Positions 42,481 through 61,877 of a stretch of DNA of 64,000 nucleotides are shown piece by piece. The notes under the pieces were generated by a model. That model saw only the letters and a list, made by a program, of their open reading frames with translations, had not been told where the DNA came from and searched no databases. Source of the stretch: Arenibacter antarcticus (GTDB taxonomy: Bacteria > Bacteroidota > Bacteroidia > Flavobacteriales > Flavobacteriaceae); contig NZ_CP166679.1 in NCBI RefSeq assembly GCF_041320605.1, positions 620,001-684,000 on the forward strand. Direction: 5' to 3'. Position numbers and translations under genes: made by a program. Each line of letters begins with the position of its first letter. Position 1 is the stretch's first letter.

Positions 42481-43521
42481 TTATTCATTGGTAATAATAA
42501 TTTTCAGTGCTTTTTCTTCGGCACCGTTTAAAAACACTTGATAAGCATGCTCAAGCTCTGAAAGCGGGAAATGATGTGTAATCATTTTCTTTAGATCCAA
42601 ACTATTCGTAGAAACCGCTTTTAATAGCATAGGAGTTGTATTCGTGTTAACAAGTCCAGTGGTTATAGTAAGATTTTTAATCCATAGTTTGTTGATTTCA
42701 AAATCTACCTTTTTGCCATGTACTCCTACATTGGCAATGTGAGCACCTGGTTTTACTATTTTTTGGCAAATATCCCAAGTTTGAGGAATTCCAACAGCTT
42801 CTATAGCAACATCAACACCATCGCCATCAACTATTGCTTTAATAGCAGCTTCTACATCTGTAGTTCCAGAATTAATGGTATGTGTAGCACCTAGTTCTTT
42901 GGCCAATTTAAGCCTATTATCATCTAGGTCGACCATGATGATTTTAGAAGGAGAGTAGAACTGTGCTGTTAAAAGGGCAGACATACCAATAGGGCCTGCG
43001 CCAATAATGGCAATTTCATCTCCAGGTTTCACCTTACCATATTGAACGCCTATTTCATGACCTGTTGGCAAGATATCACTTAGTAAAACTGCTATTTCAT
43101 CATCAATAGTTGCTGGTATTTTGTGCAAACTATTGTCGGCATGTGGGATTCTAACATATTCCGCTTGTACCCCATCAATCATATAACCTAAAATCCAGCC
43201 TCCATCTTTACAATGTGAATACATTTGTTTTTTACAATATTCACAAGAACCACAAGAAGTAATACATGAAATTATCACTTTGTCTCCCTTTTTAAACTGA
43301 GAAACACTATCCCCAATTTCTTCAATAATACCCACACCTTCGTGGCCGAGAATACGTCCACTTTCAACTTCTGGGTTTTTACCTTTGTAAATACCTAAGT
43401 CAGTTCCACAAATCGTTGTTTTTAATACTTTTACAATTACATCTGTGGGCTTAAGGATCGTAGGTTTTGGTCTTTCTTCCAAAGCGATATTATGATCGCC
43501 ATAATAAACTAATGCTTTCAT
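42481..43521 (-). CDS. zinc-dependent alcohol dehydrogenase (MDR family)
   Basis: The 346-residue protein has the catalytic zinc ligands Cys38 (TTICGTD) and His60-Glu61 (GHEGVG). The structural zinc ligands are Cys90, Cys93, Cys96 and Cys104. The NAD-binding motif GAGPIGM lies near residue 173, and an Asp at the end of beta2 (IIMVDLDDNRL) implies NAD use. It oxidises secondary or short-chain alcohols such as butanediol or isopropanol, judging by family; the exact substrate is unknown. There is no neighbouring pathway gene. Confidence 0.92.
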   Translation of the reverse strand: MKALVYYGDHNIALEERPKPTILKPTDVIVKVLKTTICGTDLGIYKGKNPEVESGRILGHEGVGIIEEIGDSVSQFKKGDKVIISCITSCGSCEYCKKQMYSHCKDGGWILGYMIDGVQAEYVRIPHADNSLHKIPATIDDEIAVLLSDILPTGHEIGVQYGKVKPGDEIAIIGAGPIGMSALLTAQFYSPSKIIMVDLDDNRLKLAKELGATHTINSGTTDVEAAIKAIVDGDGVDVAIEAVGIPQTWDICQKIVKPGAHIANVGVHGKKVDFEINKLWIKNLTITTGLVNTNTTPMLLKAVSTNSLDLKKMITHHFPLSELEHAYQVFLNGAEEKALKIIITNE

Positions 43522-43954
43522 ATTTTTATGTATTTATTGTTTATAATTATTCTTAACGTGCAACTAGATACCTATACTACAGGTTATTCCCCAAGGTGAA
43601 GGAGTAAATGGAACGATGCTTATTTTGACCATCTCCAATAGGCAGATATCTCACCTATCAAGGTAGTGGTATAGACTGGCAGAATAAATGATATATGTCA
43701 TGGAATACACCGCAATCTCGAGATTACCCATGTAGGGAAATAGGCGTTCCCATCGTACTTTTGAAACTATTCTATTGAGCTTCTCAAAACGCTTACTTGC
43801 GTCTCCAGAGTAAGCCCCCAAACCCTGATCTGATAAGAACATAGAAACGGGAAAACCAATTCACTTCGCAACAATTGCAACTCGCATTCTAGCTTCAATG
43901 CATAAAAGGTTAACACAATAACAATAGGGTGTTTCATATCTTAAATGAAGGATA
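43522..43954. other. gap without a credible gene
   Basis: On the minus strand a 63-codon frame (43651-43842) is open, with the phrase RFEKLNRIVSKVRWERLFPY, and in the same frame the preceding DNA reads MRVAIVAK before a stop. It might be the relic of a gene, but I do not recognise it and would not call it coding. Confidence 0.3.
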
Positions 43955-48000: not shown

Positions 48001-48093
48001 AAATACTGTTTTAGCGTGACTTTAAACTGTTGTTTGTTAGAAAATAAACCCTTAGAAATTAAATGCACTAATTTGCCCAGCTCAACCCTTTAT

Positions 48094-48945
48094 TCAGTGG
48101 CTCCCATGACTGCTGAGTTGGCTTAGTTCCCTAATTATATTTTGTTTTCGAGTCTTGGAAATCCCCAAATGATCCAGAAAAAATTGATCTTTAATAAGCT
48201 GCCTACACAGCACCACATCCCTACTCAATAAAAACTGCTTTTCCCTTTTGGTCAATAACTGAGATACGGTAATGGGATACAGGCCCAGCCGATAAATACG
48301 GTCCTTTAGACCATTGTCTTTGGGATAATCCCAACTCAATAAGTGCAATCCTATGCATGTACCGTATTTAATGGCATCTTCAGTAAAACGGGTATTGGTA
48401 ACAACACCTCCACTTACCAACTTTACATCATGCTTCCCATTTTTTTCCCATTGTTGTTTTACATCCTGAAAACGCGAATGGATATAAAGTGGAACCCTCA
48501 CATTACAATTGCGCCCTTCCTCTCCATGAAATTTACATTCCAGAAGGTACAGCTCACCATTTTTCTCCGCAAAAACATCAATTTCATGGGTTACACATAG
48601 GCCAGGCATAATTTTGCCGACTTTTGTTTTATAGCCCGAATACTCCAAAATGGCCGCAACGAATTTTTCGAATGGGAATCCAGTGGGTCCCAATTCATAT
48701 ATGGCTTTTTTTAACTTGTACTTGGCTGCAAAAATTGCCCCTTTATTCTTTAACAATGCAAAGGCACGGTTGTAAATTTCCTTGGAAGTTATCCCTTTAT
48801 AAAGCTCTTCCCTTACCTGCCCAACTATTTGTTCAACCAATTCTTCCCCCGCACCACACTTCCTTAAGGAATTGCGCAACTTACTTGTGGAGAATTTATC
48901 TTTCTCCCCAGAAGATTTAATGATATCTATAAGAACTTCATCCAC
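48094..48945 (-). CDS. ATP-cone domain fused to PD-(D/E)xK nuclease domain
   Basis: The 283-residue protein starts with an ATP-cone (residues 1-88: VLIDIIKSSGEKDKFSTSKL then IYNRAFALLKNKG), the nucleotide-sensing module of ribonucleotide reductases and NrdR. A restriction-endonuclease-like core follows: Asp123 in HEIDVFA, and E136-C-K138 in LLECKFH, the D...E-x-K metal site of Mrr-like nucleases. The last 120 residues have a helical end (SKTRKQNIIRELSQL). This fusion would couple DNA cleavage to the ATP/dATP level. It sits between the beta-CASP enzyme and the Usp cluster, away from any methyltransferase, so it is unlikely to be a classical restriction enzyme. Confidence 0.82.
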   Translation of the reverse strand: MDEVLIDIIKSSGEKDKFSTSKLRNSLRKCGAGEELVEQIVGQVREELYKGITSKEIYNRAFALLKNKGAIFAAKYKLKKAIYELGPTGFPFEKFVAAILEYSGYKTKVGKIMPGLCVTHEIDVFAEKNGELYLLECKFHGEEGRNCNVRVPLYIHSRFQDVKQQWEKNGKHDVKLVSGGVVTNTRFTEDAIKYGTCIGLHLLSWDYPKDNGLKDRIYRLGLYPITVSQLLTKREKQFLLSRDVVLCRQLIKDQFFLDHLGISKTRKQNIIRELSQLSSHGSH

Positions 48946-48984
48946 AGTTATTTCTTTTTAGTTTAGTATTGTTAGTTACAGGTA

Positions 48985-49395
48985 TTACTTTGCATGGTAA
49001 TACTTCCTGACCAATGCCCTTATCTGGTTCTCGGTCTTACTATCTGCCTTGGCCACCACCTTGACTTTAGCAGCAATGGATCTATAGTTTTTTAATAATG
49101 ATTTCCTGAATTTTTCATTGGTATCCCCGGGACCAAAAACAACAACTTCCTCTGCATTTTTGATTTTAAAGGCCAATTCAGAAAAGTAAGTTCGCAATTG
49201 ATGTTTTTCCCGTTCCAAATAGCGGCTTTCATGTATAATTTGCTGTGCACCACTAGATTTCATTCTTGATGTTGATCCGTTTTTTAAACTAAAAAATTCT
49301 AGATTGGAAAATAATGTTTCAAATTTTTCGCCAGTCTCTTTTAAACGAACGATGTACGCCTTTTCCTTATCCATCCAAATCCCTACTTTCTTCAT
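48985..49395 (-). CDS. small eRF1-like / translational-machinery-type protein
   Basis: The 136-residue protein starts KKVGIWMDKEKAYIVRLK, contains the His-linked HESRYLEREKHQLRTYFSEL helix, and has VVVFGPGDTNEKFRKSLL. Together these recall the eRF1 domain-1/host-attachment-like family found with ribosome-rescue or hibernation factors. The GPGDT loop takes the place of the GGQ/NIKS loops and lacks those signatures, so release activity is not implied. It starts 10 nt after the end of the neighbouring Usp gene and belongs to the same transcript. Confidence 0.55.
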   Translation of the reverse strand: MKKVGIWMDKEKAYIVRLKETGEKFETLFSNLEFFSLKNGSTSRMKSSGAQQIIHESRYLEREKHQLRTYFSELAFKIKNAEEVVVFGPGDTNEKFRKSLLKNYRSIAAKVKVVAKADSKTENQIRALVRKYYHAK

Positions 49396-49405
49396 TGTTA
49401 TAGTT

Positions 49406-50245
49406 TTAAGGTGAATCGTGCAGCGCTAAAATGGGTATTTCTGATTGATAACCTATTTCCTTTACTAAGGGTTTATAAAAGATGTTCTCAAAAAAACCAT
49501 GTTTCCTATTCACAAATGCAAGCATATTACACCCACTATCTTTTATAAAATCCTTAATCTCAGCGGAGATTTTATTCCCATCTCGGAAATGGAAGGTATG
49601 TTCAACTTCCTGAAATAAGGATTCCAACAAAGCCCTATTTTCTTGTTGTGCCTTATTCAGATCAGATTCTAGACCTATGTGGAGGATCTTTATAACGGCC
49701 TTTTGCAGCATGGCAATTTCTAGGAGATATTGCAATTCAATGTGTTTAAAACCAGTTAAAAAATCGGTTGGAAAAACTATCTCCTCAGGAACTACAATCA
49801 TTTCATTCTCGGGTACGGCCAATACAGGACTTGTAGTTATTTTCTCCATAACCTCAACAGTATTAGATCCAAAAAACACACGTGCAGCACCGCTACTGCC
49901 CTTAGTCCCCATTACTATCATATCTATTTCTTGATTTGTTAAAGTATGTCTAATAGCATCTAAAAGGGAGTTATAAACCGAAATGGTGTGAAAGGTATGT
50001 TCCGAGGAAAACTGCAATTGGCGCAACAATTTCTGGAGCTCCTCTTCAGATTTATTTTTTGCAGCCTCATAGGCCATTTCCCCAGGCTCGGGCACCATCA
50101 TATTATCCAAACTATATCCACTTACCCCAAAAACATTCAACAAGTAGAAGTCGCACTCTTGCCCTTTAAAAAGTTTTAGGGCATAATTAATGGCGTTTAG
50201 GGCATTTTTAGAAAAATCCGTCGGTACTAATATTTGTTTAGGCAT
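49406..50245 (-). CDS. universal stress protein, tandem UspA domains
   Basis: The protein has about 279 residues from the ATG at 50245 (MPKQILVPTDFSKNALNAI, abbreviated). The frame is open 19 codons further, but that part is not conserved. The first UspA domain has the ATP motif G-x2-G-x9-G-S in GTKGSSG plus FFGSN. The second domain is degenerate and lacks it. It likely binds ATP and dimerises. A regulatory dyad with -7 element lies 56 nt upstream of the ATG. The eRF1-like gene follows in the same transcript. Confidence 0.9.
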   Translation of the reverse strand: MPKQILVPTDFSKNALNAINYALKLFKGQECDFYLLNVFGVSGYSLDNMMVPEPGEMAYEAAKNKSEEELQKLLRQLQFSSEHTFHTISVYNSLLDAIRHTLTNQEIDMIVMGTKGSSGAARVFFGSNTVEVMEKITTSPVLAVPENEMIVVPEEIVFPTDFLTGFKHIELQYLLEIAMLQKAVIKILHIGLESDLNKAQQENRALLESLFQEVEHTFHFRDGNKISAEIKDFIKDSGCNMLAFVNRKHGFFENIFYKPLVKEIGYQSEIPILALHDSP

Positions 50246-50300
50246 ATTGTTTATATCGTTTACAACAGTACTAATGTAACCGACAAATTCCAGTCTAGGC

Positions 50301-50314
50301 ATGATTAAAATCAG
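50301..50314. promoter_or_regulatory. shared dyad operator, site 1
   Basis: ATGATTAAAATCAG fits ATGAY-N4-RTCAT with one mismatch at the last base. On the minus strand the -7-like TACATTAG (50278-50271) begins 22 nt downstream. It serves the usp gene starting at 50245. Confidence 0.6.
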
Positions 50315-50410
50315 TTTAGATCGGAAAGTCCTAAAACGACGGGATCCACTTTAAGGGCCGCCCTTATAGGTTGGATCCCAAAACGGGGTTAAAAAAAATG
50401 CCGAATGGAA

Positions 50411-51247
50411 TTAGCCCTGCAGCACCATAAATGGGATACTCACATGAAGCCCAATCTTTTTAATAACTGGCTCAATAAATAGTCGCTCCAAAAAAGTATG
50501 CTTATTTTGGATCATCACCAACAGGTTTAATTTTCTATTCAATTGAAAATTATTTATGCCTTCAATAACCCCTTGATCGGGCAGGTTGTGAAACAGATGG
50601 GAGGTGTTTTTCATTATAACCTCCAATTTTTGTTTGTTTTTTAATTGGTTTTCAGCCAGCTCATAACCCCTGGAAATATGCACCACTTCTACATGGGACT
50701 GGTGTAATTGTTGCAACTGCAACAATGCTTTTAATTGATCTTCACAATAGGAAACCTCATAATCTGTTGGAAATAAAATTTCCTTAGGTGGCACATAATC
50801 GTATCGCGCAGGCACGGCAATAACTGGAAAATTCGCGCTCTTGATCAGGTGAACGGTATTGGTGCCCATAAAAATTTCTTGTGCCCCCGTAGCCCCATGG
50901 GTTCCCATAATTACTAGGTCTGCATTTTCCTTGGCAACGGTCTGTACAATTTCATCTACAAGCTGGCTAAAGGCCGAGCGCAGTATGAAATGGTGCTTAG
51001 GGTTTTTAAAATCATTTTCTAGACGCAACTTTAACTTCTCCAAACGGGTCGTGGAATTAACCTGATATACATCTCCCAATCCAATTTGTCCAGGGCTAAA
51101 CAAAATATATTCCGACTGATAGGCTGCTGGAGAATACGTATTCAATAGATAAAAAGTACACTCCTCATCCTTAAAAAGCTGAAGGGCGTACTTTATAGCA
51201 TTAAAAGCATTCTCCGAAAAATCGGTAGGCAATACAATTCGTTTCAT
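50411..51247 (-). CDS. universal stress protein, tandem UspA domains
   Basis: The 278-residue paralogue starts MKRIVLPTDFSENAFNAIKY (abbreviated). The first domain holds G-x2-G-x9-G-T: GTHGATG, then MGTNT. The second domain (from PPKEILFPTDYEVSYCE) lacks the glycine-rich ATP loop. It lies 15 nt after the previous usp gene (51263-52108), so the two form one transcript. The sequence ends SIPFMVLQG, the strand shared by the group. Confidence 0.9.
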   Translation of the reverse strand: MKRIVLPTDFSENAFNAIKYALQLFKDEECTFYLLNTYSPAAYQSEYILFSPGQIGLGDVYQVNSTTRLEKLKLRLENDFKNPKHHFILRSAFSQLVDEIVQTVAKENADLVIMGTHGATGAQEIFMGTNTVHLIKSANFPVIAVPARYDYVPPKEILFPTDYEVSYCEDQLKALLQLQQLHQSHVEVVHISRGYELAENQLKNKQKLEVIMKNTSHLFHNLPDQGVIEGINNFQLNRKLNLLVMIQNKHTFLERLFIEPVIKKIGLHVSIPFMVLQG

Positions 51248-51262
51248 TTGGTAACTATTAAA

Positions 51263-52108
51263 TTATCTGGATACGTTTTGAAGCACCATAAAAGGGATCT
51301 TGATATGCAACCCTATTTTATCAATCGTAGATAAATATAACATATCCTCCATATAGGAGTGTCTGGAATTCACCAAAACTAACATATTAATGGCGTGATG
51401 GACAATGTATTTAGTGATAGCGGTAGTTTTGTCCTTTTCCAAAGTAGTCTCAAAGGTGAGTTTGGGCTTTCGCATGCAATTTTTCAAAAATTCCTTATTG
51501 TCTTGCTGTCGCCAGGATAAATTTGTAATCGGATCTATGTGCAATATATGTACCGTAGAGCGGAAAGACCCCGTCATATCACACAGCAATTTTAGTTCCC
51601 TTCGTCTATTTTGCACCAAAAAATTGGTAGGAAAAAGTATTTCTTTGGGAGGATGATATTCATACCCCTCTGGGATGGCAAGCACAGGGCAATGAACGTA
51701 TTTTAGAAGATGCAGGGTATTACTGCCGAAAGTCAGCCTACTATCATTGGTAGCGCCACGGGTACCCATAACAACAATATCGATATTTTCTTGGTTAACA
51801 AGGTCATTTACCTCGTCCACAAGGTCACCAAAAATTGTGATTTCCTTTAATTTATGATGTGGATTTGGAGAATATTCCTTTAAGTCCTTTAAAACTCGTT
51901 TCATCGACTTATCAGATTTCCGAAGAGTTGCTTCCTTTAATTCGTCTACATGGTCTTGGGCCATTTCTGCTGCTTTCCTATAGACTTCATCCGCATAGGT
52001 ATGAACAATAAAAAATTCACATTTTTCATACTTAAATACCTGACAGGCATATTTTAGTGCGTTGAAGGCATTTTCCGAAAAATCTGTGGGCACTAAAACT
52101 TTTCTCAT
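51263..52108 (-). CDS. universal stress protein, tandem UspA domains
   Basis: The 281-residue paralogue (MRKVLVPTDFSENAFNALKY, abbreviated) has its first-domain ATP loop as GTRGATN and FGSNT. The second domain is divergent. It leads a two-gene operon with the usp gene at 50411. A TACCTTTG -7 element lies at 52174-52167, about 60 nt upstream, with no dyad of the shared type at the 22-nt position, so it may be controlled differently or co-expressed with its upstream neighbour. Confidence 0.9.
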   Translation of the reverse strand: MRKVLVPTDFSENAFNALKYACQVFKYEKCEFFIVHTYADEVYRKAAEMAQDHVDELKEATLRKSDKSMKRVLKDLKEYSPNPHHKLKEITIFGDLVDEVNDLVNQENIDIVVMGTRGATNDSRLTFGSNTLHLLKYVHCPVLAIPEGYEYHPPKEILFPTNFLVQNRRRELKLLCDMTGSFRSTVHILHIDPITNLSWRQQDNKEFLKNCMRKPKLTFETTLEKDKTTAITKYIVHHAINMLVLVNSRHSYMEDMLYLSTIDKIGLHIKIPFMVLQNVSR

Positions 52109-52205
52109 AAGTATAGTATTTGTGATTTACTTAAACAATTCCTGACATATTCCTATTGGACCATCTCAAAGGTATCTTTTCAAATTCATTTAAATTAAGC
52201 TCCTC

Positions 52206-53045
52206 CTATTCATGAAGTACCAGAAATGGAACTTTGGTATGATAACTTATCTCTTCTACTGCAGGCCTGAACAAAATTCTTTGAAAAAAATTCAAATTCT
52301 TGGCCACCATAGCAATCATATCAATTTCTCTACTCTCTGTAAAACATTGAACCGCCGTTTCCAATTTCGCACCTGTTAGTGAGTGAAAACTATGCGCTAC
52401 ATCTTTAAAATAGTCACTCAGAAACTCTTTATTAGTCAATTGCTCCTGACTTAACTCCTCCCCTTTTTTAGAAATATGAAGTATACTTAGGGCAGACTTA
52501 TTGATTTCCGCCATTTCCAAAAGGTTGTCCAAAACATTTATGTCGTACCCAATATGGTAATCGGTTGGAAAGGCAATTTCCTTGGGCTTACTAAATTTAG
52601 CTTTTTCAGGAATCGCCAATAACGGACATTTTACCTTGGTAATAATATCTCCAGTATTGCTCCCTATGGCCACTTTTTTAAATCCTGTGGCCCCCTTGGT
52701 CCCCATAATTATTAGTTGGATATTCTTATTTTGAACCTCTCGCTTTACCGTGTCAACAAAATAATCATAAACTGCGATGGGCACATAAGTATGGTTGGAA
52801 TTTGGAGCAGACTCTTCAATTCTTTTGATCAGTTTCTTTAATTGCTCGCGACTATCGGATAACAAAGCATCCTGAAAATTAGCTATGGAGGATTTTAAAT
52901 TGGATTCTGTACCAGAATAACTAGGCACGGGATTAACGTGTAACATATAAAAGGTACATCTGTGTTCTTGGAACAGCTCCAACCCATATTTCACCGCATT
53001 AAAGGAATTTTCGGAAAAATCTGTAGGAACTAAAATATTTTTCAT
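52206..53045 (-). CDS. universal stress protein, tandem UspA domains
   Basis: The protein has about 279 residues from the ATG at 53045 (MKNILVPTDFSENSFNAVKY, abbreviated); an open but unconserved extension reaches 53096. The first domain has GTKGATG then IGSNT, the second lacks the loop. It has the best-formed control region of the island: a dyad at 53102-53115 and a perfect TAATTTTG -7 element at 53079-53072. Confidence 0.9.
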   Translation of the reverse strand: MKNILVPTDFSENSFNAVKYGLELFQEHRCTFYMLHVNPVPSYSGTESNLKSSIANFQDALLSDSREQLKKLIKRIEESAPNSNHTYVPIAVYDYFVDTVKREVQNKNIQLIIMGTKGATGFKKVAIGSNTGDIITKVKCPLLAIPEKAKFSKPKEIAFPTDYHIGYDINVLDNLLEMAEINKSALSILHISKKGEELSQEQLTNKEFLSDYFKDVAHSFHSLTGAKLETAVQCFTESREIDMIAMVAKNLNFFQRILFRPAVEEISYHTKVPFLVLHE

Positions 53046-53071
53046 TTCAACCGAGTTTTGCTTTACTCCTC

Positions 53072-53115
53072 CAAAATTAAGTCGCAAAAACCGCAATCTA
53101 AATGACCAATATCAT
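53072..53115 (-). promoter_or_regulatory. shared dyad operator with -7 element, site 2
   Basis: On the minus strand ATGATATTGGTCAT (53115-53102, all ten core bases fit) is followed by 22 nt and TAATTTTG (53079-53072, exact TAnnTTTG). The dyad centre falls about 42 bp before the expected start, the class-II activator position. No -33 TTTG is needed or seen. Confidence 0.75.
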
Positions 53116-53221
53116 GTACCCACTACAAAAAGCAGCAAAAGTGAAATAAATAGTTTAATTAACCTACAATCCCATATTTTGGGAACGTAAAACCTAGGGG
53201 CTAGCCTTTCTCCCTAAGTCA

Positions 53222-54274
53222 TTAATTTACCTTACTAAGGCCTTCCATATCTAGAATTTGGATGTTTTTATTCTCTATTCGAATTAAACCTTCTTTTTTA
53301 AAACTAGACAACGTCCTAATTAATGTCTCCGTTGCCATACCAGCAACACTGGCCAGATCGCTCCGCAGAATATGTAATCTCCCCTGGGAGTCCTTTTCAA
53401 GCTTATTGGCAAATTTCAATATTGTAGTTGCCGTTTTTTTTCTCACAGACCCGTATGCCATTTCCAATAATTGTTCCTTGGTCTCAGATAGATTTTCTGT
53501 CAATATTGCCATGAGCTCCATCGTTAACTGGGGATTTTCTTCGAGCACGACTTTAAATTCATCTTTTCCCAGCCCTACCAATCTTACTTCTCCCATTGCC
53601 GTTGCAAATTCCTGATACGTAAGATTTTTGCTAAAACAGGTGAAACCAAAAAAATCATCGGCTTTATAAATTTCGGTAATCAATTCCTTGCCCCATTCAT
53701 CCAATCTATGGGTTTTAACAACTCCATTAAGAACCAAATAAATAAGGTTGGAGTTACTTCCTTCCTTGTAAATAACATCCCCAAGGACAAATTCATAGGT
53801 ACGTCCCTCATCTACTATATAATTTTTAAGTTGATTAATGGTCTGCATCCCCAAACTGCCAACTTCAGTAACGGATCTACCCAAACCACTATTTTCCCTA
53901 ACAATTGCCATTCTTGCTAACCTACTATTAATAGCTCCCAATAGTTCGGATTCTGTAAAGGGTTTGGTAATATAATCGTCTGCTCCTAGGTCCATACCCT
54001 TACGAATATCCTGCCTTTCGGTCTTGGCAGAAAGAAAAACAAAGGGAATTTGCTTGGTTGTTTCTTCTTGGGATAACGCCATTAGCACCCCATATCCATC
54101 CAATTCGGGCATCATAATATCACAGATGATTAAATCTGGCAAATGTTGTTTGGCCAGCAGTAATCCCTTACTCCCGTTGGAGGCGGTATACACCTGGAAA
54201 TAGCTCAATTCTAAAAGCTCGGCCGTATTCTCCCGCAAAACCGAATCGTCCTCTATGATCAACACTCGTTTCAT
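53222..54274 (-). CDS. response regulator fused to CRP/FNR-type transcription factor
   Basis: The 350-residue protein starts with a receiver domain (residues 1-118). Its phosphoacceptor is Asp52 in LIICDIMMPELDG, with Lys104 in DDYITKPF. A cyclic-nucleotide-binding-like domain follows (about 148-250, GDVIYKEGSNSNLIYLVLNG). A CRP-type winged helix-turn-helix is at about 300-340 (DLASVAGMATETLIRTLSSF, abbreviated). In FNR the recognition helix uses E-x2-S-R; here it is E-T-L-I-R, keeping Glu and Arg but not Ser. The RRs usually seen in this class lack the cNMP domain, so the protein could integrate phosphorylation with ligand or redox signals. It follows the sensor-kinase gene by 57 bp and is the likely activator of the usp operators. 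Confidence 0.88.
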   Translation of the reverse strand: MKRVLIIEDDSVLRENTAELLELSYFQVYTASNGSKGLLLAKQHLPDLIICDIMMPELDGYGVLMALSQEETTKQIPFVFLSAKTERQDIRKGMDLGADDYITKPFTESELLGAINSRLARMAIVRENSGLGRSVTEVGSLGMQTINQLKNYIVDEGRTYEFVLGDVIYKEGSNSNLIYLVLNGVVKTHRLDEWGKELITEIYKADDFFGFTCFSKNLTYQEFATAMGEVRLVGLGKDEFKVVLEENPQLTMELMAILTENLSETKEQLLEMAYGSVRKKTATTILKFANKLEKDSQGRLHILRSDLASVAGMATETLIRTLSSFKKEGLIRIENKNIQILDMEGLSKVN

Positions 54275-54331
54275 CTATTGCTGTATTTAAATAAGTACCG
54301 CCCTTTATCACATATCATGCGTATTGGTTAA

Positions 54332-55564
54332 CTACCCTGCATTATGTTCTAGGGGGAATTCTACCGAAAACACACTTCCTTTACCTGATTTGCTTTTAAA
54401 GTAAATTGCCCCACCAATGTTCTCCACATGAACTTTTACAATATTCAATCCTATGCCAGTCCCTTGAATAAGTCGTGCATTTTCTGCTCTATAATACCTT
54501 TCAAAAATATGCTTCTGATTCTTTTCGGGAATCCCTATCCCTAGATCAATTATATGGAATACAATTTTACTTGGAAGCAATTCCACTTTAATATCTATAT
54601 CAGTCTCCTCTGGGGAATATTTTATAGCGTTGTGCAAAAGATTGGTCAAGACTAAGGAAACTATTCGTTCATCCTGATTTATATCGATCTCATCAATGTT
54701 TTCAGGATAAATTATTTTCTGTCCGTCCTTTAATAGCATATTGGCATTATAAACTACCTCGTTCACTACTTTGCTTAGTGAAAAATCGGTATACCTGTAC
54801 ACTTCTTTCCCTTTCTCCAATCTCTCCACAGATAAAAAATCGTTTAGTATACCATTTAGATGATGTACACCACTAATAATTGTATTTAAGTGTTTCTCCC
54901 GTTTATCTTGCTGATCATCCCTACTGTATTTCCCTACTAGTGTAGCCGATGTCAGTATCCCACTCAACGGAGTCTTAAACTCGTGGGAAACCAAAGAGAG
55001 AAATTCGGTTTTAAGATCATTTAATTCCCGTTCCCTATGCAGTGCACTCTTTATTTTTGACTCCGCATTCTCCCGCAACTTTATCTCCCTGGTAAGTTTA
55101 ACCACGGTTTTCTCCAATTCCTTGGTACGGGCCTCGATCTTTTCTTCCAATCGCGAATTTAGTTCCCTTATCTGCCGTTCCTGTTCTTTTTTTTCCGAGA
55201 CATCTATGACTAAGGCCATAACATACGTTTTCCCCAACAACGAAAACGGATTGAGGCCTACCTCTATTGGGAATTCCTCACCGTTCATGCGTTTTCCAAA
55301 AAGCGTTCTCCCATGGGCCATTCTCCTTTGCCCTTGTTTTTTATGAAAATCTTCCACGTATTTATCGTGTGCATTGTGAAAACTTTCAGGAATTAACAGA
55401 TGTAAAGGTTGCCCCTTTAATTCCCCCTCCCCATAACCGAACATTTCATTGGTACGGGTGTTGGTCCCAATAATGATCTGTTGTTCACTCACCAACAAAA
55501 TCCCTTCGGATACGGCCTCGGACAACAGTTTTAAAACATTCTTGCTTTTCTCAAATGCACGCAT
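54332..55564 (-). CDS. PAS-domain sensor histidine kinase
   Basis: The 410-residue protein is cytoplasmic, with no membrane span. A PAS domain (about 8-125: GILLVSEQQIIIGTNTRTNEMFGYGEGEL, abbreviated) is followed by a coiled-coil (128-178). HisKA has the phospho-accepting His194 in SLVSHEFKTPLSGI. HATPase_c contains the N box (TNLLHNAIKYS), G1 (IIDLGIGIPE) and G2 (GTGIGLNIVK). It should phosphorylate the REC-CRP protein encoded 57 bp downstream. The PAS lacks the usual heme ligand pattern of FixL, so the signal is unknown (redox or energy state is possible). Confidence 0.92.
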   Translation of the reverse strand: MRAFEKSKNVLKLLSEAVSEGILLVSEQQIIIGTNTRTNEMFGYGEGELKGQPLHLLIPESFHNAHDKYVEDFHKKQGQRRMAHGRTLFGKRMNGEEFPIEVGLNPFSLLGKTYVMALVIDVSEKKEQERQIRELNSRLEEKIEARTKELEKTVVKLTREIKLRENAESKIKSALHRERELNDLKTEFLSLVSHEFKTPLSGILTSATLVGKYSRDDQQDKREKHLNTIISGVHHLNGILNDFLSVERLEKGKEVYRYTDFSLSKVVNEVVYNANMLLKDGQKIIYPENIDEIDINQDERIVSLVLTNLLHNAIKYSPEETDIDIKVELLPSKIVFHIIDLGIGIPEKNQKHIFERYYRAENARLIQGTGIGLNIVKVHVENIGGAIYFKSKSGKGSVFSVEFPLEHNAG

Positions 55565-55942
55565 ATGATAAAGTTACATTAATTTACGAAGTTTTATAGA
55601 TTTCGTCCTAGTCCCTTTAGCTGTAGCAAAGTGAAACTACACCCGAACTCGTATTTCCTTAAGTCCACAACAGATTCTTTAAAACCGCCTAAAAGTGTGA
55701 TTCCTTCCCTAATTGTAGTAACTCTTAAAATCATTTTGTACTTTTAATTGCAAATAAAGTACCACCACGGAGATAAATAGCGACTTTAAATCTGAATAAA
55801 ATAATCATTGCTATTTTTAATACTGAATCAAGGCGATCATAAAAAAAGTTGTATGTGGAGCTTAGGCAGACCATTTACACACCAGAATTACCAAGGAATA
55901 GCAACATAGCGGAAATTTTTTAATAAGCTTTCTTTGGAAGAC
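55565..55942. other. divergent intergenic region
   Basis: There are 378 bp between the sensor kinase and the TerB-like gene. No gene and no ATGAY-N4-RTCAT dyad is seen. A TAACTTTA sequence (55576-55569, minus) might be a -7 element for the kinase. Confidence 0.35.
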
Positions 55943-56368
55943 ATGAACGTTCCTAAACCACAATCTATGTCACCAACAAAACAACAGATCAAGGAATTTT
56001 ATCAATGTTTGGGCAAACTCTTTTATGCCATAGCCATGGCCGATAAGAAAATCATGCCGAACGAAATTGATTCCTTAAGAAAGGATGTGAAAAGATATTG
56101 GCTCGCTATAGACGATAGTAAGGACGAGTTTGGCACCGATGCCGCATTCCAAATAGAAATTGTTTTTGACTGGCTGCAGGATCAAGAAAAAGAAGGCGAT
56201 GAATATTTTACGGAATTTATGGATTTTTACGAGGAGCATCCCAATTTTTTTAGTCCGCAAATAAAAAAACTCATTTGGAAAACAGCAGACGACATTGCCT
56301 CCTCCTATGCCCATAAAAACAAATCTGAACTGATTCTCCTGAACAAGTTGAAAATCACGCTATCCTAG
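55943..56368 (+). CDS. TerB-like small helical protein
   Basis: The protein has about 141 residues from the ATG at 55943; a TTG three codons earlier is less likely. It is all-helical, with ECLGKLFYAIAMADKKIMPNE-like content (CLGKLFYAIAMADKKIMPNE) resembling the calcium-site-bearing TerB fold, and an acidic helix pair (DEYFTEFMDFYEEHP). TerB-like proteins are associated with tellurite and general stress responses. Function here is not known. It is on the plus strand inside the otherwise minus-strand stress island. Confidence 0.6.
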   Translation: MNVPKPQSMSPTKQQIKEFYQCLGKLFYAIAMADKKIMPNEIDSLRKDVKRYWLAIDDSKDEFGTDAAFQIEIVFDWLQDQEKEGDEYFTEFMDFYEEHPNFFSPQIKKLIWKTADDIASSYAHKNKSELILLNKLKITLS

Positions 56369-56528
56369 GGTCTTTCAATACCACGTTAGATGGATTCCCA
56401 AAACCCGACCGACCGCAGGTACGTCTGTTGCATAAGCCACAATGGATCACCAACACACCTGCCCCCCTTTCCATCCATAGATTTAAGTGTCCTTTCTAAT
56501 CTTAGCAAGTTGTATTTTGCGTACCCGT

Positions 56529-57374
56529 TTAAAGGTTAACCTCATTAAAACTCATCAACGGAATGGAGATATGTGATTCCATTTTTTTTACCAAGCTTTT
56601 ATGAAATATTTTCTGAAAGAATCCTTTTTCCTTCCTTTCCAATAAGACCAGTATATCTGCTCCGATCTCATCGGAAAACGTCTTGAGTTTTTCTTCAATA
56701 GCATCAGAGAAAATAAGTTGAAAGCCTATATTTTCATAATCTACCTGCTGTTCCAACATTTCTTTAAACCACTCCATTTGTTCTTTTCCAGCGTATTCCT
56801 TTTCCGTAGAAATATGAATGATTTCTATTTTCGATTTTAGCAATTTGGCCATGGGTACCAATGTTTTAATGGCCAAGATATCTGCTTCCTCAAAATCAGT
56901 GGCATACAGAATAGTATCAATCGCTTTTGAAAACTTAGTGTTGGGAATGATCAACAGCGGACAGCTTACTTTATCTTGAAGCTCCTTTCCTATATCACCT
57001 ACTAATAAACCACGTTCTGAATGCTTGTCCTTTCTACCTATTAAAATTAAATCTGATTTAAATTCTTTGGATGCCTCTAATATTGCATTGGTAATGGAGT
57101 CTCTCTGAACCACTTCCAATACAATGTTTGCAGGGTCTAAACCTGAACCGATATGTTTTTCACAATAAGCTTTAAGGATCTCCTTTTGTTCTTGGATCAC
57201 ATGATACGCTATCTGTTCTAACGGACGGCTGACCGAAACCCTTAGAGGCTCCATTTTATGCACATATAAAACAATGAGTTTGGCTCCCATCTCCCTACTA
57301 AGATTATAAGCGAATTTTAATACCGGAACCTCTCTCTCCGATCTATCAGTAGCATAAAATACAGTATTCATCAT
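56529..57374 (-). CDS. universal stress protein, divergent (no ATP loop)
   Basis: The 281-residue tandem-UspA paralogue starts MNTVFYATDRSEREVPVLKF (abbreviated). It keeps the fold but its loop reads GRKDKHSERGLLVGDIG. The second glycine of G-x2-G-x9-G-S/T is Asp, so ATP binding is doubtful. It carries the cleanest dyad of the island 50 nt upstream of its ATG, followed 22 nt further by TATTTTTA. It may have a signalling or partner-binding role instead. Confidence 0.88.
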   Translation of the reverse strand: MMNTVFYATDRSEREVPVLKFAYNLSREMGAKLIVLYVHKMEPLRVSVSRPLEQIAYHVIQEQKEILKAYCEKHIGSGLDPANIVLEVVQRDSITNAILEASKEFKSDLILIGRKDKHSERGLLVGDIGKELQDKVSCPLLIIPNTKFSKAIDTILYATDFEEADILAIKTLVPMAKLLKSKIEIIHISTEKEYAGKEQMEWFKEMLEQQVDYENIGFQLIFSDAIEEKLKTFSDEIGADILVLLERKEKGFFQKIFHKSLVKKMESHISIPLMSFNEVNL

Positions 57375-57393
57375 AATGAAAATTTTAATACTT

Positions 57394-57437
57394 TAAAAAT
57401 ATTCGATTATAGTTAAGGGAACAATGACTTTGGTCAT
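57394..57437 (-). promoter_or_regulatory. shared dyad operator with -7 element, site 3
   Basis: ATGACCAAAGTCAT on the minus strand (57437-57424) is a perfect ATGAC/GTCAT dyad. After 22 nt comes TATTTTTA (57401-57394, TAnnTTTG except the last base). The ATG is 50 nt from the dyad. Confidence 0.7.
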
Positions 57438-57629
57438 AGCACTTTTCATTATCAAAGCTATAAGTTGTCAGGACTACTGAATACTGTTTAGAACAACCTC
57501 CCTAGAATTAAATATCAATAATCTATAGGAGACCAAAAATTATTAGTGGTACCCTAAGGTTAAAATCACGTACACCCAATCGTAAATTATTTGATAATTT
57601 TAGCTTAACTTCATACCAGATACAACCTT

Positions 57630-57899
57630 ATGAAAGCAATGGCACATTTAAAAAGTCCCCTAACACCAAAGGAAAATGAGGTTATCCTTACCGCCTTGAA
57701 TCCTATTTTTGATATTCAGGTATTGGACCTTGATTTGGAAAAGGGGCTCCTCCTTTTTAACTACAATAGTCGCATGGTCTTGGCAATGGTAGAAAAAAAA
57801 TTATTGGAAGCAGGACTCCCCATAATGTCCTATTCCTTTCCTAACCGCATTCCCCTACTTCATAGTGGAATGGATAAGGACCATGGCACCTTAGCATAA
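57630..57899 (+). CDS. small conserved-looking protein, ferredoxin-like fold possible
   Basis: The 89-residue protein has a beta-alpha-beta-like order (FDIQVLDLDLEKGLLLFNYN, then VLAMVEKKLLEAG), which would fit an HMA/ferredoxin-like fold without its CxxC metal site. The second ATG (fourth codon) is also a possible start. It lies divergent from the usp at 56529 and faces the usp at 58031. A TAATTTTA -7-like element at 57595-57602 precedes it. Family not recognised. Confidence 0.5.
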   Translation: MKAMAHLKSPLTPKENEVILTALNPIFDIQVLDLDLEKGLLLFNYNSRMVLAMVEKKLLEAGLPIMSYSFPNRIPLLHSGMDKDHGTLA

Positions 57900-58030
57900 G
57901 AGATATCCTCTTCCTGTCTAATAAAAATACCCCTGACAACAATTACAATTTTTCCCTTTTTAGACCCAAATCACTCCCTAAAAGTTAAAGTCGAACCACC
58001 AAATCAGCTTTCATTATGGTCTTCATATGA

Positions 58031-58876
58031 TTATCGTTCTGATAATACCAAAAGAGGAATAGAGGTATGAAAGCCCATTTTTTTCACTACCGCCTCCCGG
58101 GTTAGTTTTTCAAAAAAGCTATGGCCATAATGGATCAAGGAAATCATATCAGCATTGTTCTCCATTGCAAAACCAGTTATGGTTTTAGCCACGTTAACCT
58201 TCCATTTAACCGTAAAAAAACTATGGGAAAGTGAACCAAAATATTTTTTCAACACTGATTGGTTTGACAGCTGGAAATCGCTTAGTAAAAAGTCCGTTCC
58301 AACCTGAAAAATAAAAGTTTCTGCCTCCCACATTTTCGCCAATTCCAACATGGGATTTAGTTCTGAAGCTTCAAAGTACTTGAGAAAATTAGTTGGAAAA
58401 ACAAGTCGCTTTAGACTTTGGAAATTATACTCAATAGGAACCACTATTAGGGGCCTATTTCTAATTGCATTTAATACCTTTACTGTATTGCTACCCATAA
58501 ATACTTCCTTTGCCCCAGTTGCTCCCGTGGTACCCATCACTATACAATCAATATGTTTAGCAACCATTGTTTCTTTAATGGCGGTTAAAAGATTAGCTGC
58601 AATAGAAACCTTTTCGAAAGTATGATTTTGATTCTTGTGATGCTGTCCTAAATACTCAAGGATTTTATCCAATTCCAATTGCGATTGTTTTCCCATGGAG
58701 TCATAAATCACCCCTAATCGTTGTTTTCCCTTGTCCCCCAGAATATTAGCGAAATCTGGCTCATAGGAGTTTAAAATAATAAAATGGCAAGCCAGATCGG
58801 CATATAGCTTCAATGCAGTGAACATAGCATTCCAAGCACTATCTGAAAAATCGGTGGGCAAAAGAATTATCTTCAT
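58031..58876 (-). CDS. universal stress protein, tandem UspA domains
   Basis: The 281-residue paralogue starts MKIILLPTDFSDSAWNAMFT (abbreviated). The first-domain ATP loop is GTTGATG with MGSNT, followed by VVP. The second domain (SLKRLVFPTNFLKYFEASEL, abbreviated) is divergent. It is separated from deoC by a 292-bp divergent spacer with a dyad operator at 59052-59065, and its ATG is 176 nt from that dyad. Confidence 0.9.
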   Translation of the reverse strand: MKIILLPTDFSDSAWNAMFTALKLYADLACHFIILNSYEPDFANILGDKGKQRLGVIYDSMGKQSQLELDKILEYLGQHHKNQNHTFEKVSIAANLLTAIKETMVAKHIDCIVMGTTGATGAKEVFMGSNTVKVLNAIRNRPLIVVPIEYNFQSLKRLVFPTNFLKYFEASELNPMLELAKMWEAETFIFQVGTDFLLSDFQLSNQSVLKKYFGSLSHSFFTVKWKVNVAKTITGFAMENNADMISLIHYGHSFFEKLTREAVVKKMGFHTSIPLLVLSER

Positions 58877-59051
58877 CGCTTTTTTTATTAGTAGTTAAAC
58901 TCCCAATCTTTAAGTGGGATAAAAATGGATGTAAGCTCCAAAAACCAAATCAACTTACCACTGAATTGTCCACAAGATCATTGCCGTAGGGGATTGGGAG
59001 TATAACATTCATTCCTTCACAACAAAGTAGGTAATTACCATGTCAAAAAAC

Positions 59052-59065
59052 ATGATTTTGGTCAG
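59052..59065. promoter_or_regulatory. shared dyad operator, site 4
   Basis: ATGATTTTGGTCAG fits the dyad with one mismatch at the last base. It lies between usp (58876, minus) and deoC (59169, plus). Towards usp, TACTTTGT starts at 59029, in the same 22-nt register but with a poor -7 match (TACTTTG contains TA-C-TTTG). The plus-strand side has no -7 element at that distance. Confidence 0.45.
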
Positions 59066-59168
59066 TCTTAAAATACTTTTACACAGCTGATGGTTATCAT
59101 ATAAATAGTACAACGGAATACCTAGCTTTGAATCTAATACATCAAAAAAGCCACAAGCAAAAGACTAC

Positions 59169-59825
59169 ATGCAGCTTCAAAAATATATAGATCACACCCT
59201 TTTAAAGGCTTCAGCTACCGAGAAAGATATCCTTGAGCTATGCGATGAAGCACTAAAGTTTAATTTCTATGCCGTTTGTATAAACGGCGCCCATATACCA
59301 TTAGTGAAGTCAAGGTTAAAAGGCTCTCCTATTAAAATAGCTGCTGTAGTAGGATTTCCGTTAGGCGCCATGACTACAAAGTCCAAAGTCATGGAGGCAG
59401 AGGATTATAGTGACCAAGGCGCCGATGAGATAGATATGGTACTCAATATCGGCTGGCTAAAATCGGGTAAATTGATACAGGTGAAGGAAGATATTGCCCA
59501 AGTAAAATCTGGGATAGGGACTAAGGTGTTAAAGGTAATCTTGGAAACCTGCTATTTAACGGATGAGGAGAAGCAAATAGCCTGCAGATTGGCAATGGAG
59601 GCTAATGCCGACCTTGTTAAGACCTCTACCGGTTTTGGTCCTGCAGGGGCAACTTTTAAAGACGTTCTATTATTAAAACAAACGGTTGGGGATTCGTTAC
59701 AGATAAAAGCCTCTGGAGGAATAAAAGATAGGGCCACAGCGCTTAAATATATAGAACTGGGCGCTTCCAGAATTGGGACTTCCTCTGGAACATTGATGTT
59801 GGCTGCTAGAACAAAGAAAAAATAA
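59169..59825 (+). CDS. deoC: deoxyribose-phosphate aldolase
   Basis: This 218-residue class I aldolase cleaves 2-deoxyribose-5-phosphate. The Schiff-base lysine is Lys151 in VKTSTGF, and Lys180 in IKASGGIKD is the second active-site lysine. The start MQLQKYIDHTLLKASATEKD (abbreviated) is standard. It overlaps deoD by one nucleotide (TAATG), so the pair is translationally coupled and degrades deoxynucleosides. It lies next to the stress island but is a normal salvage enzyme. Confidence 0.97.
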   Translation: MQLQKYIDHTLLKASATEKDILELCDEALKFNFYAVCINGAHIPLVKSRLKGSPIKIAAVVGFPLGAMTTKSKVMEAEDYSDQGADEIDMVLNIGWLKSGKLIQVKEDIAQVKSGIGTKVLKVILETCYLTDEEKQIACRLAMEANADLVKTSTGFGPAGATFKDVLLLKQTVGDSLQIKASGGIKDRATALKYIELGASRIGTSSGTLMLAARTKKK

Positions 59826-60523
59826 TGAGTTTACACATACAAGCGAAAGAAGGAGAGATTGCGGATACCGTACTATTACCAGGAGACCCGCTGCGTGCAA
59901 AATGGATTGCCCAAACTTTTTTGGAAAACCCTTACTGCTACAATAACATTAGGGGGATGTTGGGGTACACGGGTACTTATCAAGGGAAACTTGTTTCGGT
60001 GCAGGGTAGCGGTATGGGCATCCCATCAGCAATGATCTATTATCACGAACTGGTCAACCACTACGGTGCCAAAAATTTAATTAGGGTAGGAACAGCGGGC
60101 GCCCTACAAAAAGATCTAGCATTAGGGGATATTGTATTAGCCATGGCGGCATCTACAAACTCTGGCATCAATAATAAAATATTTAGGAATTCCTATTACG
60201 CGCCAACAGCCAATTTCAATTTATTACTTAAAGCTGCGGATTATGCAAAAAAAATGAAAATACCCATAAAGGCTGGAAATGTACTTTCTTCGGATATTTT
60301 CTATAACGACGATGAAGATGAGTACAAACTGTGGGCGAAATTTGGAGTACTTTGTGTGGAAATGGAGGCTGCAGGCCTGTATACCTTAGCCGCAAAGCAT
60401 CAAGTTAATGCGTTGGCCATACTTACCATATCCGATTCATTGGTGACAGGTGCAAAATCTACTACTATAGAACGGGAATCTACTTTTGGCAATATGATAG
60501 AAATAGCCCTTAACATTACCTAA
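59825..60523 (+). CDS. deoD: purine-nucleoside phosphorylase
   Basis: The 232-residue hexameric DeoD-type enzyme is recognised by LLPGDPLRAKWIA (phosphate binding), RVGTAGALQKDL, and VEMEAAGLYTLAA with the catalytic-site residues. SDSLVTGAKSTTIERE near the end contains the catalytic Asp. It phosphorolyses purine (deoxy)nucleosides and passes deoxyribose-1-phosphate, via phosphopentomutase, to DeoC. Coupled to deoC by an overlapping start. Confidence 0.96.
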   Translation: MSLHIQAKEGEIADTVLLPGDPLRAKWIAQTFLENPYCYNNIRGMLGYTGTYQGKLVSVQGSGMGIPSAMIYYHELVNHYGAKNLIRVGTAGALQKDLALGDIVLAMAASTNSGINNKIFRNSYYAPTANFNLLLKAADYAKKMKIPIKAGNVLSSDIFYNDDEDEYKLWAKFGVLCVEMEAAGLYTLAAKHQVNALAILTISDSLVTGAKSTTIERESTFGNMIEIALNIT

Positions 60524-60532
60524 AGCCCCTAT

Positions 60533-60925
60533 TTATTTAATATTCTTGATCACGTTCTTCAATTTTTCCGAAACCTCATCAGCGATCTCCATCAGATCTA
60601 AATTAATGACCGCCTGCATTGATGCGGTTGGATTAACAGCCGAAATTTCAATAAAGCCGGCTTCCCTTTCCTGTACAATGACATTACATGGGAGCATAGT
60701 CCCAATTTTATCCTCGGCCTGAAGCGCCTTATAGGCAAATGGTGCATTACAGGCCCCTAAAATTTTATAGTTGTAGAAATCTACCTGAATTTTATTCTTT
60801 AAGGTAGCTTTTAAATCAATTTCAGAGAGTACGCCAAAACCTTCCTTCATTAAAGCTTCCTTGGTTTTCTCCACAGCTTGATCGAAAGTTATATTGGATA
60901 GCGTTTTGTCAAAATAATATTCCAT
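60533..60925 (-). CDS. DUF302 domain protein
   Basis: The 130-residue protein is a single DUF302 domain, beginning with ITFDQAVEKTKEALMKEGFGVLSEIDL (abbreviated) and having KILGACNAPFAYKAL and GTMLPCNVIVQE with two conserved Cys. The family is often found in stress or redox gene clusters; the biochemical role is not established. It faces deoD, with 9 nt between the stop codons. Confidence 0.88.
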   Translation of the reverse strand: MEYYFDKTLSNITFDQAVEKTKEALMKEGFGVLSEIDLKATLKNKIQVDFYNYKILGACNAPFAYKALQAEDKIGTMLPCNVIVQEREAGFIEISAVNPTASMQAVINLDLMEIADEVSEKLKNVIKNIK

Positions 60926-61021
60926 GTGTTCAATTTTAAGATTCAGTTTAAGATCATAATATAAAATAGGATTAGACCAGAAATAATTAGTCTCACCCCA
61001 CTACTACTCCCATAGCTTTTC

Positions 61022-61480
61022 CTAGCTGGGTGTCCTCTGCTTACCAGTTATATCCACAATTTTAATTCGGAAGACCAAAGTGGTTTCATCCGACGTGATC
61101 TTGCTGGAAAAATCACCGACAAATTGCAGGTTTAATTTCTCTTTAATTTCAGATATTCTTTTTACACCCTGCAGAAAATGATGGAGCTGATACTTTGCAT
61201 CGATACCCTTTAACTCCTCATATTCTCCATGAATAAGGACGGACTGCCAATTATTGAGCGATAAAATATTGCTTACATTCAAGGAGACCAAAGGTTGCTC
61301 CCGGACGCTTTCTATTTTGTGCCCTTCTCCGGAAATACTTATTATACAATGTTTTTCTGGGTCATAATAATAGGTGATCGGAAGAATATAAGGAGAATTA
61401 TGACCTATATAAGCCAAATGTCCCAAATAGTTATTCTGCAATAACAAAAGGCACTGCTGTTCTTTCATATCCTTGATCAT
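61022..61480 (-). CDS. pyridoxamine 5'-phosphate oxidase-like flavin-binding protein
   Basis: This 152-residue split-barrel protein shows the PNPOx-like N-terminus (QQCLLLLQNNYLGHLAYIGHN), SPYILPITYYYD and IHGEYEEL. It probably binds FMN or F420/heme and reduces small molecules. Starts at 61480 or 61468 (both ATG) are open. A dyad operator lies 92 nt upstream, with TACCTTTA in the same 22-nt register, so it seems to belong to the island's regulon. Confidence 0.8.
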   Translation of the reverse strand: MIKDMKEQQCLLLLQNNYLGHLAYIGHNSPYILPITYYYDPEKHCIISISGEGHKIESVREQPLVSLNVSNILSLNNWQSVLIHGEYEELKGIDAKYQLHHFLQGVKRISEIKEKLNLQFVGDFSSKITSDETTLVFRIKIVDITGKQRTPS

Positions 61481-61877
61481 CCTGGGCAGTTTAAAATGGT
61501 TAACAGTAATTTCAATTATCTTGCATACCCCCCCTATTCTTTAAAGGTAACTAAACCATTGGAAACACGAAATGACTTGCGTCATACCAATTTAATAAAA
61601 GTTTATATAAACTATATCATTCAATTAATATTAAGATACTTAGATAACTATAATAATTGGACCTATACAAATGCGAATACTTACTATTGAGCTATTTTAT
61701 TTTCTAGAATATAAACTTATCCTTTAGGGGTATACCTGTCAATTAGCTACGCTATCTAGACCACTCTGAGGCATTTTAGATTAGTTTATCGAATATATAA
61801 ACCGTTTAAAGTTTTAAAACAAGAATAACGTTAATATTTCATAACCTTTGGGTATAAATATTTAATCCTCCGAGAAT
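61481..61877. other. intergenic region with operator site 5
   Basis: There are 397 bp between the PNPOx-like gene and the lipoprotein gene. Apart from the operator at 61542-61585 I see no gene; a 64-codon frame at 61496 is too AT-rich and repetitive to be real. Confidence 0.4.
61542..61585 (-). promoter_or_regulatory. shared dyad operator with -7 element, site 5
   Basis: ATGACGCAAGTCAT (61585-61572, minus) is a perfect ATGAC/GTCAT dyad. It is followed after 22 nt by TACCTTTA (61549-61542, one mismatch to TAnnTTTG). It faces the PNPOx-like gene, whose ATG is 92 nt from the dyad. Confidence 0.65.

Follow-up and report, generated by a model that had tools for sequence, protein, structure and literature searches.

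The 64-kb window analysed here, meaning the whole stretch of DNA under study (Arenibacter antarcticus, contig NZ_CP166679.1, positions 620,001 to 684,000), carries an island of universal stress protein (usp) genes preceded by copies of a composite element: a dyad, MTGAY-N4-RTCAT, and a TAnnTTTR -7 box that starts 22 nucleotides (nt) downstream of it (gap 22). Very probably the dyad works as a switch that proteins related to the oxygen regulator FNR recognise, set at a fixed promoter distance. Two regulatory genes on the minus strand stand directly before a run of three usp genes. One encodes a 410-residue PAS histidine kinase (54332..55564), a candidate sensor whose PAS part is closest to the heme PAS domain of FixL in the PDB; the other encodes a 350-residue fusion of receiver, cNMP_binding and HTH_Crp_2 domains (53222..54274), hereafter receiver-Crp, a candidate activator by Pfam match and conserved residues that carries the helix ATETLIR. 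Operator ATGATATTGGTCAT, separated by gap 22 from -7 box TAATTTTG (53072..53115, minus strand), occupies the interval from the receiver-Crp gene to the leading usp of the run. It is followed by usp 52206..53045 and by two usp-like genes (51263..52108 and 50411..51247; all on the minus strand), the latter two named by position and sequence without a Pfam scan and likely cotranscribed with the first.

The gap of 22 nt recurs at the other copies in the window. On the minus strand, operator ATGACCAAAGTCAT with box TATTTTTA (57394..57437) lies upstream of usp 56529..57374 (minus), and operator ATGACGCAAGTCAT with box TACCTTTA (61542..61585) lies upstream of a Pyridox_ox_2 gene (61022..61480, minus) followed by a DUF302 gene (60533..60925, minus), both assigned by Pfam. 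Operator CTGATTTTAATCAT with box TACATTAG (50271..50314, minus; one mismatch) precedes usp 49406..50245 (minus). A first-pass annotation of the sequence had placed dyads at 50301, 53102, 57424, 59052 and 61572; all five are present, and at four of them the -7 boxes TACATTAG, TAATTTTG, TATTTTTA and TACCTTTA on the minus strand start exactly 22 nt past the dyad, as it had proposed. Its distances of 56, 57 and 50 nt from dyad to usp start hold with starts at 50245, 53045 and 57374, the first two picked by likeness to other usp genes (longer open reading frames, ORFs, are listed from 50302 and 53096). The fifth dyad, at 59052, lies where it was placed but belongs to a weak operator, CTGACCAAAATCAT, with a poor box, TACTTTGT, at gap 22 (two mismatches; 59022..59065, minus), upstream of usp 58031..58876 (minus). 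Two copies had gone unlisted: an exact one on the plus strand whose first base is C (CTGATGGTTATCAT, gap 22, box TAGCTTTG; 59087..59130), before deoC (TIGR00126; 59169..59825, plus), and a one-mismatch copy on the minus strand (ATGACATATATCAT, gap 22, box TACCTTGA; 43658..43701), upstream of an alcohol-dehydrogenase-like gene named by look only (42481..43521).

The dyad alone is in modest excess, with 20 occurrences at up to one mismatch in the window against 9.75 expected, and 34 sites in the genome against 22 for a reversed control. Its combination with the box at gap 22 is far above chance: the window holds four exact copies and six at up to one mismatch, and 200 shuffles of the window gave means of 0.0 and 0.09, respectively, with a maximum of two in any shuffle. 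Relatives had already been seen when the half-site was widened to MTGAY, with either A or C as its first base; the pattern as first proposed, with A only, gives three exact copies in the window. With that original dyad, the genome contains 16 copies with a TANNTTTR box at gaps of 7-37 nt, ten at gap 22 and the remaining six at six different gaps, compared with two for the reversed control. The widened pattern at up to one mismatch yields 46 genomic copies (16 exact) against four for its reversed control, and two of the 45 copies examined for the genes behind them lie inside a long ORF. Occurrence as often in shuffled DNA or coding sequence was one of the two refuting conditions named in the first-pass annotation, and the element withstands it; reversed pattern, other half-sites and other gaps give no signal.

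Conservation was assessed in 80 loci of Flavobacteria, the best 80 of 566 matches to a receiver-Crp alignment, which were selected by protein likeness alone and are not all independent, since several come from one genus. ATGAYN4RTCAT has 248 oriented occurrences in these loci and is followed by a TANNTTTR box at gap 22 in 89, at gaps 21 and 23 in none, and at the other gaps from 5 to 44 in a mean of 0.70 each. Control half-sites gave none at gap 22 (TTGAY, n = 42; GTGAY, 2; ATGAR, 28; ATCAY, 26; AAGAY, 18; reversed dyad, 18), and CTGAY gave one of four. The receiver-Crp ORF was recovered in 77 of the 80 loci (L112, L128 and L142 were dropped); an earlier regular expression had recovered it in 63, missing 17, with a loose site in 60. 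In line with the expectation that relatives would keep the dyad before usp, 70 of the 77 loci carry TGA-N6-TCA and, at gap 22 from it, a TAnnTT box within 400 nt after the receiver-Crp gene, and the next gene is usp-like in 74 (69 by regular expression, five by eye; the exceptions are L094, at a contig end, L135 and L151). All 70 sites have TCAT as their proximal half, and the distal first base is C in 37, A in 24, T in 7 and G in 2; the dyad is not fully symmetric, because this outer base is C or A.

A strict pattern, MTGAYN4RTCAT-N22-TANNTTTG, was searched in 392 Bacteroidota genomes; results for these genomes and for loci of other families hold among the matches listed. The pattern occurs in 95 of the 392 genomes and in all 46 sampled from the same family, own genome included; the 45 same-family relatives hold 230 strict copies against two reversed ones, the latter counted by eye. 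Outside the family, copies are found in seven of eight genomes of family f5 and four of four of f61 (14-19 copies each), with 0-4 in scattered others. A phylum-wide rule is rejected, strict copies beyond the family being common only in f5 and f61. A profile of the Crp parts matches 36 of 36 same-family genomes searched at E <= 5.9e-56, and genomes G069, G078 and G372 have neither a profile match nor a strict site. Genus g40, probably Flavobacterium, accounts for 25 of the 45 relatives; the best Crp match falls in a 230-258-residue frame in 15 of 16 g40 genomes searched and in a 360-residue frame in G211. Two g40 genomes read in detail carry exact copies at ccoNO-like and hemN-like genes (named by likeness to those of A. 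antarcticus), one of the two has an exact copy at a nirK-like gene, and one-mismatch copies stand at a P-type ATPase gene in one genome and at the gene of an FNR-like protein in the other.

The first-pass annotation had described a regulon of the stress island; its point that unrelated genes share the element stands, but the copies are spread genome-wide rather than confined to the island. In the A. antarcticus genome, exact copies precede nadA, deoC, the Pyridox_ox_2 gene, hemN, nirK, MlaE, a thioredoxin-reductase-like flavoprotein gene (under cut-off) and the cytochrome c gene that leads the NosZ cluster, as well as seven usp genes, with one further usp at one mismatch (usp genes outside the window were named by sequence look). 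One-mismatch copies precede the FNR-like gene itself, a divergent P-type ATPase gene, ccoNO, pta (protein cut by the locus end, under cut-off), an N-ethylmaleimide-reductase-like gene (under cut-off), thioredoxin and CBS-domain genes, an ATP-synthase alpha/beta-type gene, a PLD-domain gene and others. Between the FNR-like and P-type ATPase genes (genome 882131-882204), the dyad has a box at 22 on both sides. Islands of same-genus relatives hold, by look only, further usp runs as well as pta and acetate-kinase-like pairs; copies also precede a pyruvate:ferredoxin oxidoreductase gene in f61 and a PPDK gene in genome G191. With hemN, nir and nos among the targets, joined at one mismatch by fnr and cco, the stress frame widens to a probable low-oxygen regulon. 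This reading is indirectly backed by Flavobacterium psychrophilum, in which, according to the available portion of its promoter map, cbb3 oxidase and heme synthesis genes rise under oxygen limitation (PMC9723704).

In the same source, the TAnnTTTG box sits at -12 to -5 and is the ordinary box of the housekeeping sigma factor (PMC9723704). With the box at that position and a gap of 22, the dyad falls at -48 to -35, with its centre at -41.5. A centre at -41.5 is the position of a class II activator, and the dyad shows the TGA-N6-TCA half-site spacing of Crp/Fnr proteins; its predicted position is thus that of a dimer site at a class II Crp/Fnr-dependent promoter. The earlier reading of a class II activator site in constant register gains support from the fixed gap of 22 in the genome and in relatives. 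That reading gave the class of the activator without a name, and the FNR-like and receiver-Crp proteins are the candidates found here.

The genome contains five Crp-type genes above the Pfam cut-off and two weaker matches. Three of the five proteins share the helix ATE(T/S)xIR: the window receiver-Crp, a second receiver-Crp (L066:9915-10967; it and its kinase lie as a pair at genome 3205914-3208483) and a 228-residue FNR-like protein encoded beside the cco genes (L065:5421-6107; genome 881420-882106). Each of these three genes is followed by a gap-22 copy and then a usp gene, and FNR-like genes adjoin the copies at cco and fnr. The other two Crp proteins of the genome (L070 and L071) were rejected as readers, having a different helix and no site in the stretches around them; the nearest copy to either, a one-mismatch copy at 2556554, is ~6 kb off.

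The window receiver-Crp exceeds the Pfam cut-offs for PF00027 (48 bits) and PF13545 (50.5 bits) and thereby belongs to the Crp/Fnr superfamily. Receiver residues D9, D10, D52, S82 and K104 and helix residues E316 and R320 are kept in 79 of 79 receiver-Crp proteins and I319 in 77, and a kinase-sized gene directly precedes receiver-Crp in 76 of 77 loci. Among PDB entries, the PAS part of the window kinase resembles FixL most (E = 3.8e-12) and DosP next, and it possesses both the FixL His and Arg. Of 78 kinases, 71 have H in the column that we take, from FixL positions, to be that of the heme-ligand His, and 54 have R in that of the distal Arg; the domain is a putative heme O2 sensor. All 16 FNR-like proteins compared have four cysteines. 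In the A. antarcticus protein, C106 and the N-terminal pair are aligned with cysteines of crystallised FNR (match at E = 5.6e-22), and the protein is probably an Fe-S oxygen sensor. FixL-like PAS residues together with FNR-like cysteines suggest two oxygen-sensing inputs onto one operator.

Three same-genus relatives possess a further receiver-Crp paired with a ~920-residue multi-PAS kinase bearing the motif NCRFLQ (L053:14967-17720, L057:10690-13464 and L059:16472-19225). A gap-22 site lies upstream of the kinase in three of three, and the NCRFLQ part of the L053 protein is similar to LOV proteins deposited in the PDB (E = 9.9e-35 for the best).

We consider it likely that the dyad is a class II operator read by the FNR-like protein and by the FixL-paired receiver-Crp, which together would switch a low-oxygen regulon. 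A Crp/Fnr-type dimer on MTGAY-N4-RTCAT, centred at -41.5, would replace the -33 contact and recruit RNA polymerase at the TAnnTTTR promoter. Two kinds of regulator with the common helix E-S/T-x-I-R would read this one operator: the FNR-like protein with its four invariant cysteines, and the receiver-Crp fusion, presumably phosphorylated by its FixL-like PAS histidine kinase (window 53222-55564; genome 3205914-3208483). Because the fusion pairs with a FixL-like kinase, it would merge the roles of FixJ and FixK in one protein. Low oxygen would then turn on cbb3 oxidase, oxygen-independent heme synthesis, and nitrite and nitrous oxide reduction, along with fermentation to acetate and universal stress proteins in large number.

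Alternatively, the one-component FNR-like protein may be the sole reader, with the receiver-Crp fusions reading something else and standing near the copies through inherited gene order. Such a division would suit the 15 of 16 g40 genomes that have sites while their best Crp match is a 230-258-residue frame and not a receiver-Crp, and the 25 receiver-Crp-size proteins of other families with no strict site downstream. However, 70 of 77 receiver-Crp loci keep the site exactly 22 nt from the box while the surrounding bases vary, the recognition helix is common to both kinds of regulator, and a copy follows either of two separate receiver-Crp genes in the genome; a sole FNR-like reader is accordingly unlikely. 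Were the dyad instead a repressor operator overlapping the -33 region and relieved under stress, a protein at -48 to -35 could, judging from the geometry, block polymerase too, and position alone leaves the sign of regulation undecided. We regard repression as improbable, since contact by an activator typically goes with a gap as rigid as this one (89 copies at 22, with 21 and 23 empty), and induction is what one would expect of the targets. Immediately behind the dyad come four T-rich bases, the last of which is G in 4 of 70 sites; the lack of a clear TTTG element right after the dyad likewise argues against a repressor.

The fixed spacing to the -7 box would also be expected if an alternative sigma factor, and no transcription factor, recognised the element as part of an extended promoter. 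Set against this are the -7 box itself, the ordinary housekeeping TAnnTTTG in the available portion of PMC9723704, the Crp/Fnr size of the dyad, and copies with a box at 22 on both sides (genome 882131-882204), which leave a sigma element very improbable. Chance or shared ancestry of the usp genes, which are indeed paralogues, is more improbable still to the point of being negligible, as unrelated targets share the element, controls are near zero, and few of the copies examined (2 of 45) lie inside a long ORF. Chance, ancestry and the sigma-factor element are rejected on these controls.

Several observations weigh against a low-oxygen operator read by both FNR-like and receiver-Crp proteins. 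Seven of the 77 family receiver-Crp loci lack such a copy, and genomes G276 and G333 have a good Crp match and no strict site. In other families, 30 more Crp/Fnr-type loci, 25 of them with proteins the size of receiver-Crp, show seven loose gap-22 matches downstream and the strict operator in none of the 30, so the link between protein and site is not phylum-wide. In the A. antarcticus genome, 30 of the 46 copies have one mismatch, for which reason a few are expected to be false (reversed control, four); eight of 45 lack a following ORF start inside the limit, a group that includes two usp genes for which longer ORFs are listed; and targets such as MlaE and deoC are not obvious low-oxygen genes. 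A Flavobacteriales Crp/Fnr homologue is predicted, in the available portion of the source, to sense carbon supply (PMC8510549). On the sensor side, 24 of 78 kinases lack R in the Arg column and 7 lack H in the His column, C53, the fourth cysteine of the FNR-like protein, is not at the aligned FNR place, and this protein scores 105.8 bits (E 2.1e-30), far under the NCBIfam Fnr cut-off of 228.

By analogy, the system would work like FNR/Anr and like FixL-FixJ-FixK and is filed as neither FNR nor FixJ. FNR/Anr of gamma-proteobacteria, which bind TTGAY-N4-RTCAA, are alike in Crp/Fnr fold, TGA-N6-TCA core, class II promoters and targets (cbb3, hemN and denitrification, for Anr also usp and fermentation). 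In contrast, the operator here has MTGAY and not TTGAY, the helix aligns as E-x-x-I-R against E-x-x-S-R of FNR, the -7 box is TAnnTTTG, and the cysteine set is another. The FNR-type TTGAY half-site, with 42 oriented copies in the 80 relatives' loci, has none at gap 22; because of this missing FNR operator and a score under the NCBIfam Fnr cut-off, the protein is classed as FNR-like, not FNR. The DosR dormancy regulon likewise unites a heme kinase, a response regulator and many usp genes, with a NarL/LuxR-type output domain where the one here is HTH_Crp_2. FixJ is a receiver fused to a NarL/LuxR-type helix-turn-helix domain, and receiver-Crp is not classed as FixJ because its output domain is HTH_Crp_2.

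The FixL-FixJ-FixK2 cascade of Bradyrhizobium, as described in the available portions of PMC5582078 and PMC6710368, is alike in its FixL-like PAS kinase, receiver and Crp-type activator and has nirK and nos among its targets, as here; it differs in that receiver and Crp body form one protein here, an FNR-like protein carries the same helix too, and the operator is another. The F. psychrophilum promoter map shares the TAnnTTTG box, and Crp/Fnr has zero occurrences in the available part of its main text (PMC9723704). A study of anammox-community Flavobacteriales concerns Crp/Fnr proteins of the same order under changing oxygen; that study likens these homologues to MalR and bases its search on a MalR matrix from Bacteroides, and no such operator appears in the available portions (PMC8510549).

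A literature search returned, by title or abstract start, no description of this operator or of Bacteroidota receiver-Crp fusions; most subscription papers lay outside the search, making this weak evidence of novelty. The low-oxygen shift in aerobic Bacteroidota is little described in the searchable literature. The operator and its spacing rule predict targets genome by genome, with candidate regulators named, so that it becomes directly testable how a widespread family of bacteria controls nosZ, nirK and cbb3 oxidase, and the usp islands of these genomes would be explained. A bolder and rather doubtful extension is that one -41.5 operator in Flavobacteriaceae integrates several sensors of different chemistry: an FNR-like protein whose cysteines are arranged in a new way, a pair of FixL-like heme kinase and receiver-Crp, and a LOV-kinase/receiver-Crp pair. 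If true, oxygen and light (through the blue-light LOV kinase of the three same-genus relatives) would converge on the same promoters.

Five of the 30 loci from other families, all of family f17 (L290, L293, L294, L311 and L319), encode a receiver-Crp with helix ETVSR and have a lactate-dehydrogenase-like gene behind a pair of CTGA-N6-TCA dyads, with 22 nt between the dyads and again 22 nt from the second one to a TAnnTTTG box; as f17 pairs this helix with these dyads, operator and helix may change together. In the f61 genome G327, a near-identical operator and following long gene lie ~3.1 kb from the start of contigs C1 and C2 (L233 and L278). The operator is also carried by a similar protein gene (MGIGFT.DTPLKV) in three genera (L231:3-1388, L238:2-1438 and L252:3-1187), whose A. 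antarcticus counterpart matches neither Pfam nor NCBIfam at the thresholds applied. Genome G191, of another genus (L232:559-2235), has deoC-like and divergent usp-like genes with one copy each, resembling window 58876-59169, where the usp copy is weak. After the window usp run (46630-49395) come genes for a beta-CASP metallo-hydrolase (46630-48000), an ATP-cone-like protein (by look) and a small protein without Pfam match; genes like the beta-CASP and ATP-cone-like ones occur together near usp in relatives' loci L055, L056 and L064, and a lookalike of the small gene occurs in L054.

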